Below, piece after piece: positions 4,239 through 56,631 of a stretch of 64,000 bases of DNA (positions within the stretch are counted from its first letter, which is position 1; the number at the start of each line of letters is the position of its first letter). The DNA is from Pararhodobacter sp. SW119. Lineage in GTDB: Bacteria > Pseudomonadota > Alphaproteobacteria > Rhodobacterales > Rhodobacteraceae. Position numbers and translations under genes: made by a program. Below the pieces are notes generated by a model that was not told the DNA's origin, made no database searches, and was given only the letters and a program-made list of their open reading frames with translations. The stretch covers positions 62,001-126,000 of the forward strand of contig NZ_JADDJF010000003.1 in assembly GCF_017811755.1 (NCBI RefSeq), in the 5' to 3' direction.

Positions 4239-4249
4239 AAATGAGAGGG

Positions 4250-4328
4250 TGCGCGCATGCGCGCATTTCCAGAAGAATCTGATAACATGATAGAAAAGTT
4301 GTGATCTTAACCGGATCGCAACCTTTGC
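4250..4328 (+). repeat. composite palindrome element, copy g (diverged tail)
   Basis: Palindrome TGCGCGCATGCGCGCA (4250-4265) begins 12 nt after the nnrS stop, followed by TTTCC and an A-rich spacer. Near 4307 comes TTAACCGGATCGCAACCTTT, which resembles but does not match the conserved tail of the other copies. The rest of the nnrS/VPLPA gap, to 4431, holds nothing recognisable. Confidence 0.5.
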
Positions 4329-4431
4329 ATCGCGTTGCGCGTGGCGGCGCAAGGGCCAACTGACGCCCATCCGAAGCAGGCGATTGATCGACCCCCAAGG
4401 CCGTCATGCCCGCCGAAGCAGGCAGCCTGCC

Positions 4432-10216: not shown

Positions 10217-10258
10217 GGCCGGAAGCCCCCGCAACCGGCGCGCGGCCCATGCGGGGGT

Positions 10259-10340
10259 GGGTGTCCACGCGTGGACACCCGCGCAAGCCATTGGCGTGAC
10301 AGGGATTATTTCCTGCCGTTAACCTCATTGAAACTTTCGC
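10259..10340 (+). repeat. composite palindrome/GTTAAC element, copy b
   Basis: A 22-bp perfect palindrome (10259-10280, core GTGTCCACGCGTGGACAC) starts 43 nt after the msrA stop. It is followed by GCGCAAGCCATTG and, 34 nt downstream of the palindrome, by GTTAACCTCATTGAAAC with a TTTCGC end. Confidence 0.78.
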
Positions 10341-10476
10341 AGGCGGGCGCTTTTCGCGCGCAACGCGACGATCCGCGGCCACCCCATCGGCTGGCAGGTC
10401 CGCGCCCGCCACTTGACGCGCCCCGCACCGGCTTCTAGGCCGGCAGGCGATTCCGTTTCCGCGAAAGGCCCCGAGC

Positions 10477-14545: not shown

Positions 14546-14574
14546 AACGCTTCGGGGGCGCGCCGCGGCGGGGG

Positions 14575-14590
14575 TGTCCGCATGCGGACA
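14575..14590 (+). repeat. 3'-end palindrome, copy f (no GTTAAC tail)
   Basis: Perfect palindrome TGTCCGCATGCGGACA, 30 nt after the ruvB stop, followed by an AT-rich stretch containing ATCTTGCTGTTTTGAAATGATATAATCC split over 14593-14625. It has the position and architecture of the composite elements but lacks the conserved tail. TATAAT near 14618 could serve as a -10 for coaBC. Confidence 0.5.
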
Positions 14591-14726
14591 GACAATCATC
14601 TTGCTGTTTTGAAATGATATAATCCGTGATCGCCCATGCGGACCGGGCCGAGACGGGCGCGCGGTTTCCGAGTTGATCTCGCCCCGCCCGCCACCTAGGC
14701 TTTGCACCGCGATAGGGAGGCTTTCG

Positions 14727-16110: not shown

Positions 16111-16190
16111 GTGCGCAAATTTGCGCACTTTGGCAAGGCATTGAAAAATATAGGCCATCCGACGGCGTTAACCGCAACGAAACTTTCGGA
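16111..16190 (+). repeat. composite palindrome/GTTAAC element, copy c
   Basis: Perfect palindrome GTGCGCAAATTTGCGCAC (16111-16128), then TTTGGCAAGGCATTGAAAA, and 35 nt after the palindrome GTTAACCGCAACGAAAC followed by TTTCG. It lies between coaBC and the convergent ccoS, downstream of the GC hairpin element. Confidence 0.78.
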
Positions 16191-25292: not shown

Positions 25293-25326
25293 TCCGGGCG
25301 CCCGACTCTTGGTGCGGAAACAGATG

Positions 25327-25399
25327 GTTTCCCTGAGGTTAACGCCCAAAAGGAAACCGTTTCCGTTCAGTGACTTGATGCCTATGTGCAAGTTGCACA
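25327..25399 (-). repeat. composite palindrome/GTTAAC element, copy k
   Basis: Read on the minus strand: palindrome TGTGCAA-C-TTGCACA (25385-25399), 62 nt after the cytochrome b561 stop, then TAGGCATCAAGTCACTGAACG, then GCGTTAACCTCAGGGAAACC (25327-25347). The spacer also holds the small palindrome GGAAACGGTTTCC. Confidence 0.65.
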
Positions 25400-28946: not shown

Positions 28947-29016
28947 TCCGGCTTCCGCTTCGTCTTTCGTCTCATCGCATCAATCGGCGCGCTGACCCCG
29001 CCGCGGCGGGGAAAAG

Positions 29017-29032
29017 TGCTCAAGCTTGAGCA
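29017..29032 (+). repeat. 3'-end palindrome, copy h
   Basis: Perfect palindrome TGCTCAAGCTTGAGCA, 71 nt after the asmA stop. It is followed by two related short stretches beginning CTGGCCCC (near 29034 and 29072) and an AT-rich tract with GCTTTTTT at 29166. No GTTAAC tail. The 398-bp gap to the EAL gene also carries the AhpD-like remnant. Confidence 0.5.
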
Positions 29033-29180
29033 ACTGGCCCCTCGGCGCGAAAAAGCGTCGAAGTTTTCAGCTTCTGGCCCCGAAGGTGAAAAGAAATGAC
29101 GCGAAAGGGCCGGAAAGTGGAAAATAGAGACGATTTTCGGGTTCCGAATTTATGCCCGTTTTTTAGCTTTTTTGTTGGTC

Positions 29181-43496: not shown

Positions 43497-43518
43497 CGGG
43501 GCCTGAACCGAGGCCGAC

Positions 43519-43597
43519 GCAAACGTTTCATTGCGGTTAATTTTCGGATTTTCTGCTTCTGAATCATCGGCTTGCCGAAGTGTTCGCATTCGAACAC
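43519..43597 (-). repeat. composite palindrome/GTTAAC element, copy e
   Basis: On the minus strand: GTGTTCG-AATG-CGAACAC (43597-43580), 16 nt after the VanZ-like stop, then TTCGGCAAGCCGATGA, then TTAACCGCAATGAAACGTTT (43541-43521). It is convergent with secA. Confidence 0.75.
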
Positions 43598-43612
43598 CTG
43601 CGCCGTCCGGCC

Positions 43613-47259: not shown

Positions 47260-47312
47260 GCGCCCGCCATCGCCGCCAATGCCTCGGGCGACCGCCAGGC
47301 CACTGAATAGGG

Positions 47313-47384
47313 TTAAAATTCAGTTAACAAAAAAAACGCTTTGCATTCCAAAACAATGCGTTGCGCGATCGTCCAAGCTTGGAC
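47313..47384 (-). repeat. palindrome element copy j with a full TTAA-N7-TTAA site
   Basis: On the minus strand: GTCCAAGCTTGGAC (47384-47371), 29 nt after the quinone oxidoreductase stop, then GCGCAACGCATTGTTTTGG, a T8 run, and GTTAACTGAATTTTAACC. The last part is TTAA-N7-TTAA (47327-47313), a CtrA-type box, in the place where other copies have GTTAACCGCAATG. Confidence 0.55.
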
Positions 47385-47413
47385 CGACCCACTTTCCGGC
47401 TTCGGCCCGTACC

Positions 47414-50049: not shown

Positions 50050-50111
50050 CCCGGCGATCGGTCTGGCCGCACGGCCCCCCAAAGCCCCTGAGGGGATGAT
50101 TTCCGCGCAAG

Positions 50112-50190
50112 GTGTGCACGCGTGCACACTTTCGCAAGCCATTGAAACCGCTTGCGAAAAATCCGGCGTTAACCGCAATGAAACTTCTGG
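50112..50190 (+). repeat. composite palindrome/GTTAAC element, copy d
   Basis: Perfect palindrome GTGTGCACGCGTGCACAC (50112-50129), 62 nt after the phosphatase stop, then TTTCGCAAGCCATTGAAAC, a second small pair GCAAG/CTTGC, and GTTAACCGCAATGAAAC 35 nt downstream. It is convergent with dxs and one of the clearest copies. Confidence 0.8.
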
Positions 50191-50202
50191 CCGGCGCGGT
50201 TT

Positions 50203-56536: not shown

Positions 56537-56587
56537 GGCGCACCTGCGTGACAGGCGGCGGCGCGGCGGGGGTGTTGCGCGTGGCGG

Positions 56588-56631
56588 CTGCCATACGTAC
56601 GCCATACGCTTGCCATACGCTTGCCATACGC
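56588..56631 (-). repeat. four tandem 11-bp repeats between bchY and bchZ
   Basis: Four contiguous units of consensus TTGCCATACGC (plus-strand reading): 56588, 56599, 56610 and 56621; the last two are identical. On the transcribed strand they give GCGTATGGCAA repeats, each containing an ATG. They lie in the 127-nt gap between bchY and bchZ, where tight coupling would be expected. Confidence 0.92.

Follow-up and report, generated by a model that had tools for sequence, protein, structure and literature searches.

How can a short intergenic element keep the symmetry of its palindrome while the sequence of the palindrome changes from copy to copy? The question is raised by an element 3′ of coaBC (the product of which matches Pfam DFP/Flavoprotein) in the window, i.e., the whole stretch of 64,000 nucleotides analyzed here, which belongs to the 4.5-Mb, 192-contig genome (G000) of Pararhodobacter sp. 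SW119. The element consists of a palindrome, GTGCGCAAATTTGCGCAC, at 16111 to 16128 (+ strand, 9 of 9 dyad pairs); an IHF-like site at 16134 to 16146, at a fixed offset of +14 from the dyad center, with the consensus WATCAANNNNTTR on the − strand and CAAGGCATTGAAA on the + strand; and a tail, GTTAACCGCAACGAAACTTTCG, at 16167 to 16188 (+ strand). This order, an 18-bp dyad followed by an IHF-consensus site at one fixed offset and then by the tail, is the layout of class I.

All six full copies described in a first-pass annotation are present, and the window holds six matches to the class I tail versus 0.07 expected. R1, a covariance model built from 29 copies chosen by exact tail alone, has nine matches within the window, the weakest at an E value of 0.002. 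Besides the copy behind coaBC, class I copies lie at 1179 to 1270 (− strand; palindrome 1246 to 1263, IHF-like site 1228 to 1240, tail 1186 to 1207; 83.8 bits, as part of R1's own alignment, L021), in the convergent gap 1082/1303; at 10254 to 10346 (+ strand; palindrome 10261 to 10278, IHF-like site 10284 to 10296, tail 10318 to 10339; 65 bits), in a tandem gap 3′ of an msrA-like gene (PMSR); at 43513 to 43604 (− strand; palindrome 43580 to 43597, IHF-like site 43562 to 43574, tail 43520 to 43541; 67.8 bits), in a convergent gap; and at 50105 to 50196 (+ strand; palindrome 50112 to 50129, IHF-like site 50135 to 50147, tail 50168 to 50189; 85.7 bits, also part of R1's alignment, L022), in a convergent gap before a dxs-like gene. 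The sixth copy, at 25322 to 25399 (− strand; IHF-like site 25365 to 25377, tail 25322 to 25343; 27.3 bits), was correctly located, but its palindrome, TGTGCAACTTGCACA at 25385 to 25399, is odd centered and shorter.

Two copies previously annotated as diverged, at 4250 (+) and 47313 (−), are also R1 matches, but their tails are class II-like rather than class I. The first occupies 4242 to 4334 (+ strand; palindrome 4249 to 4266, tail CTTAACCGGATCGCAACC at 4306 to 4323; 39.7 bits, E value of 9e-9), in a convergent gap, and is part of the class II alignment. The second, at 47300 to 47393 (− strand; palindrome 47369 to 47386, IHF-like site 47351 to 47363, tail GTTAACTGAATTTTAACC), scores 21.9 bits (E value of 4e-4). 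A weak copy at 14567 to 14647 (+ strand; 19 bits, E value of 0.002) has the palindrome GTGTCCGCATGCGGACAG (14574 to 14591) and a degenerate tail. Class III is represented by a copy at 29009 to 29114 (+ strand), in a convergent gap, with the palindrome TGCTCAAGCTTGAGCA (29017 to 29032) and the tail CAACTGGCCCCTCGGCGCG...GTGAAAAG; it scores 95.7 bits with the class III model R2, which was built partly from the same copy.

The family is genuine and larger than first noted. The class I tail, GTTAACCNCAATGAAAC, has 116 matches in the window's genome at ≤2 mismatches versus 1 for the control, and exact tails number 35 versus 0 for the reversed-pattern control; the tail is conserved by sequence, as annotated. 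R1 detects at least 137 copies in this genome (E value of ≤0.001; 150 of 1,462 candidates scored), at least 107 in a second carrier, G014 (all 107 scored candidates match), and 65 of the 107 candidates scored in a third, G008. In the 121 fetched stretches, every class I tail (≤2 mismatches) fell within an R1 match. The earlier remark that no named family has this layout stands: no Rfam family matches the window at gathering thresholds, and no described family of this layout is among the literature matches listed, subscription literature lying outside the search.

The anatomy of the element was measured on 218 aligned copies from the three genomes. Dropping 12 copies shorter than 85 nt left 206, and removal of 4 with a dyad under 6/9 left 202; for pair statistics, a further 17 copies (dyad under 7/9 or tail with >4 mismatches) and 1 duplicate were removed, and the pair percentages of the remaining 184 are biased upward by this selection for a good dyad. 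The arms of the palindrome covary, as had been proposed. Pairs ±1 to ±6 are Watson-Crick in 173 of 174 cells in the 29 tail-picked copies; the 202 model-found copies give 1,185 of 1,212 cells, 6 of the exceptions being G·T. In the 184 selected copies the respective shares are 97.8, 97.8, 98.9, 96.7, 96.7, and 100%, and the 1,104 cells include 6 G·T pairs and 16 mismatches of other kinds. With partners shuffled, 73% of positions paired, versus 93% observed, a value reached by 0 of 500 shuffles. Pair ±6 is always G-C and pair ±3 is C-G in 182 of 184 copies; pairs ±1, ±2, ±4, and ±5 are variable. Arms are GTCC, GTGC, GCTC, GCGC, or GCAC in 179 of 184 copies, the inner bases usually read AA, GC, or AC, the center being less constrained, and arms and cores are widely combined. 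Pair ±1 is C-G in 92 copies, A-T in 88, and mismatched in 4 (n = 184), and it is paired in all 29 tail-picked copies. Odd-centered dyads occur in 5 of 206 copies, e.g., at 25385 to 25399 in the window, as if half-sites were able to sit one base closer.

Such a dyad resembles neither of the familiar RNA signals. An intrinsic terminator has a GC-rich hairpin and a U-tract; the T frequency at the four places 3′ of the dyad falls from 0.78 through 0.67 and 0.44 to 0.19 (column table of 152 copies), which leaves class I with only two to three pyrimidines, as already remarked of the short T runs, and the eight class III copies have AA there. In an RNA hairpin, covariation is confined to positions outside the loop and G·U is tolerated, and the dyad shows neither property. 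Recognition as duplex DNA seems favored over an RNA hairpin, because pair ±1, which would lie within the RNA loop (the central four bases), is kept by joint change; the near absence of G·U is a weaker argument, since G·U would likewise be avoided if the hairpin had to form from either strand.

The block at +14 to +26 from the dyad center, CAANNNNTTGATW, is the reverse of the IHF consensus, WATCAANNNNTTR. At least 7 of 9 consensus positions match in 27 of the 29 tail-picked copies and in 164 of the 184 selected copies, and the mean score at the fixed offset is 7.5/9 versus ≤4.1 at other offsets of the same strand (184 copies). The far side of the site is A+T rich (70% A+T), and the forward strand scores up to 5.9/9 at a neighboring offset, so part of the consensus match is composition. 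The spacer motif originally reported here (GCAAGSCATTGAAA) occurs at the chance level (5 matches versus 5.4 expected), the conserved block being CAANNNNTTGATW. The first-pass annotation mentioned neither the IHF-like site nor the class III copy at 29009 to 29114. Of 202 copies, 152 have the tail starting 47 bp from the dyad center and 44 have it starting at 48 bp (196 together); the layout is more rigid than the earlier description, with a tail block about 35 to 43 nt later, had suggested. The strict part of the class I tail is RTTAACCGCAAYGAAAC, followed by TTTYG.

The palindromic head also occurs with other tails. A head-only search of the fetched DNA returned 49 further heads, 28 of them inside gene calls; the 21 outside gene calls, sorted by eye, comprise about 8 with a class II-like tail, which centers on TTAACCNGATCTTAACC, 7 with a class III tail (the window copy at 29009 to 29114 among them), and about 6 with no recognizable tail. 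An eighth class III copy (L308) came from a relaxed search, and R2 was built from the 8 copies, all from the window's genome. Class II is a loose set with 57% mean identity, and class III couples the same kind of palindrome to a different conserved tail and has no IHF-like site. As judged from the sequences, the head is the common module of classes I, II, and III.

The elements are concentrated between convergent genes. With gene boundaries from our own codon-score calls, 189 of the 202 copies have both neighbors in view, and 141 of these lie in convergent gaps, 24 + 19 in tandem gaps, and 5 in divergent gaps, against a background of 270 convergent pairs among 1,586 adjacent gene pairs in the same stretches; 1 of 202 lies inside a gene call. 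All seven convergent gaps of ≥90 bp in the window hold a class I, II, or III element. Beyond the window, 130 of 169 such gaps hold one, a share inflated by the choice of stretches for holding elements; with one element gap per stretch subtracted, the count is 34 of 73. Class III heads lie in convergent gaps in 5 of 8 cases and class II-like heads in 5 of 10. In 84 of 117 convergent gaps with a single copy, the dyad lies closer to its own gene than the tail does to the opposite one. That the elements share the orientation of the upstream gene, as annotated, is automatic in a convergent gap, but in tandem gaps 24 copies point with the neighboring genes and 19 against them. An end rule holds nonetheless: in each of the 12 two-copy convergent gaps, the palindromes lie outside and the tails inside. 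The association is with convergent gene pairs more than with 3′ ends as such.

The best explanation, which we hold tentatively and with slightly less than even confidence, is a clade-specific nucleoprotein site that selection maintains and that insulates convergent transcription or brings it to an end. What follows about the proteins, the bending of the DNA, and the consequences for transcription or topology is inferred. Each element would be the DNA site of one nucleoprotein complex, rather than an RNA structure or, for the most part, the remnant of a transposon. The dyad would be read by a symmetric and probably dimeric protein; IHF would sit at one fixed place beside it, bending the DNA; and a further protein would read the tail, for which an OmpR/CtrA-type regulator is a candidate because the class I tail is a TTAACC-led, direct-repeat-like block and some class II tails contain a CtrA-like site. 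The complex may act as a roadblock or insulator, stopping read-through and collision and/or holding positive supercoils. This role is proposed because the fixed dyad-IHF-tail geometry fits a bent complex and because, in Escherichia coli, GapR-seq shows positive supercoils to be concentrated between convergent genes (PMC8360656). If the elements function in this way, they provide >100 near-uniform natural sites for testing how bacteria separate convergent genes. Several points weigh against it. First, 48 of 189 copies lie outside convergent gaps. Second, the element is not universal: by the leave-one-out count, fewer than half of the ≥90-bp convergent gaps hold one (34 of 73). Third, the part of the IHF match due to composition (5.9/9 at the neighboring forward-strand offset) weakens the case for IHF. 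Fourth, a homodimer with degenerate half-sites alone gives no reason for identical halves, and the cause that forces both halves to match lies outside the proposed explanation.

A bolder reading, possible but doubtful, is a lineage-specific insulator system of convergent genes in which a trans-acting protein senses self-symmetry itself and works with IHF and exchangeable tail readers. Provided that both halves match, it would accept about five different arms in combination with several cores, and the system would have spread into much of the set of convergent gaps as a roadblock or supercoil barrier. If true, this would be a new way to mark gene ends in bacteria, and the variable symmetric dyad raises the biochemical question of what reads the identity of half-sites rather than their sequence.

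A factor-aided or bidirectional terminator, in which the palindrome would fold into a hairpin within the 3′ UTRs of the two convergent transcripts and a termination factor would bind to the blocks downstream of it, is unlikely. It would account for the location of the palindrome, which lies 15 to 57 nt past the stop codon (interquartile range of 165 cases) and adjoins the stops in all 12 two-copy convergent gaps, and the observed avoidance of G·U is what one would expect if the hairpin had to form in both transcripts. E. coli inverted repeats behind stop codons (arms of ≥8 bp) are mostly parts of intrinsic terminators (PMC6060812), and terminators undergo compensatory evolution (PMC5381666); both palindromes behind stop codons and compensatory change are shared with intrinsic and bidirectional terminators. 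Unlike these, the element has no U-tract, its symmetry runs through the would-be loop (pair ±1 included), and its conserved IHF-like site and tail lie past the hairpin; moreover, 19 of 43 tandem-gap copies point against the genes. Intrinsic-terminator-like signals are about equally rare with and without elements (7% of 140 one-element ends and 14% of 14 two-element ends versus 8% of 90 element-free ends), and at least 5 of 12 terminator-like examples are the element's own palindrome or tail. Of the two functions first suggested, a protein landing site is the better idea, and transcript-end formation is unproven; the earlier interpretation is, overall, partly supported.

The distribution of the elements is narrow. 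Class I tails (≤1 mismatch) number 82 in G000, 77 in G014, and 31 in G008 and are absent from 15 other genomes of the genus; R2, scored on a limited number of candidates, finds at least 22, 14, and 2 class III copies, respectively (the 2 in G008 being weak, with E values of 4e-4 and 1e-3), and none among the candidates of the same 15; the class II pattern occurs 21, 17, and 4 times and 0 to 2 times per other genome of the genus. Among 394 genomes sampled in the taxonomic family, no further genome has >7 tail matches. Three from other genera (G353, G398, and G558) have 6 to 7 (≤2 mismatches; control, 0), possibly as distant relatives or by chance. No element was found in 78 Rhodobacterales coaBC loci (1.49 Mb; L102 and L112 left out of 80), and a class-level R1 search of 190 genomes, run under tighter filters on 22 candidates from each, returned the window's own genome only. 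One exact tail is present among IMG/VR viruses, and R1 does not score it as an element. The nearest coaBC relatives in the named loci are Rhodobacteraceae, with Defluviimonas salinarum first at 77% (the closest records possibly being left out). As far as searched, the class I/III system is confined to one small clade, 3 of 18 genomes of the genus, and a spread across Rhodobacterales is not supported. The element-bearing lineage thus has relatives in its own genus without elements, and this sharp boundary should allow a search for the cognate protein by gene presence/absence. It also tells against our preferred explanation, as it is hard to see how the other 15 genomes of the genus could do without the elements if their function were essential.

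Within the clade, individual copies come and go. When 89 copies of G014 and G008 were mapped onto G000, 19 had a same-orientation copy, 32 fell on a place without one, and 38 were unmapped; of the 32, 4 had an opposite-orientation copy and about half were mapped by one flank only. The large number of mapped copies without a same-orientation counterpart in G000 (32 of 51) also counts against our preferred explanation. The copy behind coaBC is itself absent from the 300 bp 3′ of the coaBC orthologue in G008, and at a further locus G014 and G008 have an element that G000 lacks. Shared copies mostly have different heads, e.g., GTGCGCACGCGTGCGCAC versus GTGCGCAAATTTGCGCAC. Among the dyad positions of 18 orthologous pairs (1 of 19 was dropped), 36 had both partners replaced with pairing retained, 9 showed other change, and 63 were unchanged (31, 8, and 63 without one mis-centered pair). 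Orthologous spacer identity is near background, at 0.39 to 0.58 in 10 of 11 measurable pairs and 0.74 in one. Blocks strictly kept while the DNA between them drifts are, to judge from these alignments, the signature of selection on sites.

Copying was assessed on the maxima of similarity between copies, mean pairwise identity being fixed by column composition. At 47-bp spacing, copies are no more similar than shuffles allow (maxima as high as those observed arise in 121, 69, and 406 of 500 shuffles), and no pair of them exceeds 0.75 apart from two near-identical copies in G014 (L269:9511-9603 and L272:5058-5150), which lie near the ends of different contigs and are perhaps an assembly duplicate. 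Copies with 48-bp spacing show a slight excess (0.66 in G000, reached by 8 of 500 shuffles, and 0.64 in G014, reached by 3 of 500). Recent copying would thus be rare at most; old copying is possible, because orthologous spacers are also near background. In an element-free congener (G002, L321 to L340), 54 convergent gaps have a median of about 22 bp and 6 are ≥90 bp, and the element-bearing species seem to have lengthened theirs. Palindromes in the G002 convergent gaps of 60 to 600 bp number 1 in 10 gaps versus 0.4 expected from shuffles.

These data bear on a REP/BIME-like repeat, spread by a transposase and now decaying, in which the IHF site served transposition. We regard this origin as quite unlikely, although it would explain >100 extragenic copies in two genomes, the IHF-like site, the clade restriction, the near-precise empty places between species, the short convergent gaps of G002, to which elements would have added DNA, and the slight similarity excess among 48-bp-spaced copies. 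It is opposed by the lack of such an excess among 47-bp-spaced copies and by the retention of symmetry and three blocks while the remainder drifts. The REP families with GTAG or CGTC tags and RAYT transposases are likewise high-copy short palindromes, with subfamilies of alternative complementary stems (PMC3733652, PMC2817692); unlike them, the present element has no GTAG/CGTC tag in the column table (152 copies), has extra fixed blocks, and almost lacks the G·T pairs corresponding to the G·U often observed in GTAG stems (PMC3733652). A Y1 transposase domain (PF01797) occurs at 2 loci in G000 and was not found in the draft genomes G014 and G008, so that it is not common to the carriers; neither the family head nor GTTAAC occurs near it in the two G000 regions examined.

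By analogy, the nearest functional counterpart is RIB/BIME-1 of E. coli, a repeat made of a REP pair and an IHF site that is described as binding IHF where transcription units end (Boccard and Prentki 1993, cited in PMC2817692). Both are many-copy extragenic palindromes at the ends of transcription units with an IHF site, which in the present element is putative. The element is not a member, as it has one dyad rather than two inverted REPs flanking the IHF site, and, unlike RIB/BIME-1 in that account, a dyad of variable but symmetric sequence, a conserved tail as well as alternative tails, and a concentration in convergent gaps. Correia/NEMIS miniature transposons, too, are short intergenic repeats with an IHF site (PMC2229807), but here no terminal inverted repeats were seen, little spacer sequence is common to the copies, and no target-site duplication was visible by eye at the empty places displayed.

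More improbable is a CtrA/IHF regulatory or replication-linked module, in which the tail would be a CtrA-type double site and the dyad that of a partner, the elements titrating or placing CtrA. Some class II tails, such as TTAACCTGATCTTAACC, equal the alphaproteobacterial CtrA full site TTAA-N7-TTAA, and co-occurrence of CtrA and IHF sites is reported for origins, the latter from a title cited in the same source (PMC6180460). Unlike CtrA sites as presented there, the elements mostly avoid promoters (5 of 189 copies in divergent gaps) and couple the motif to a dyad and an IHF-like site at fixed spacing. The class I tail is a near match, mostly TTAA-N7-GAAA, but its second half is mostly GAAAC, its conservation extends far past the CtrA half-sites, and class III has no such motif. 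CtrA is widespread, and the elements are not.

Least probable, and very much so, is a site for a recombinase or other strand-processing enzyme needing a self-complementary core (a cruciform or single-stranded hairpin): strict self-complementarity with wide sequence choice and almost no G·T would suit it, as would an IHF-like site between core and arm-type block, the arrangement of integrase complexes, but no rearrangement or cargo was noticed at the copies looked at, the pairing at ±1 exceeds what a hairpin needs, and 18 bp is short for cruciform extrusion.

A second repeat type, made of 11-bp direct repeats of CGTATGGCAAG, is present in the window at 56585 to 56630 (− strand) and in L201, L204, L208, L213, L291, and L294. 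Its arrays are absent from 0.38 Mb of G014, 0.4 Mb of G002, and 80 Rhodobacterales loci; G000 has 23 of them within 1.26 Mb, G008 has 3 within 0.14 Mb, and one word of the repeat is enriched in the convergent gaps of G000.
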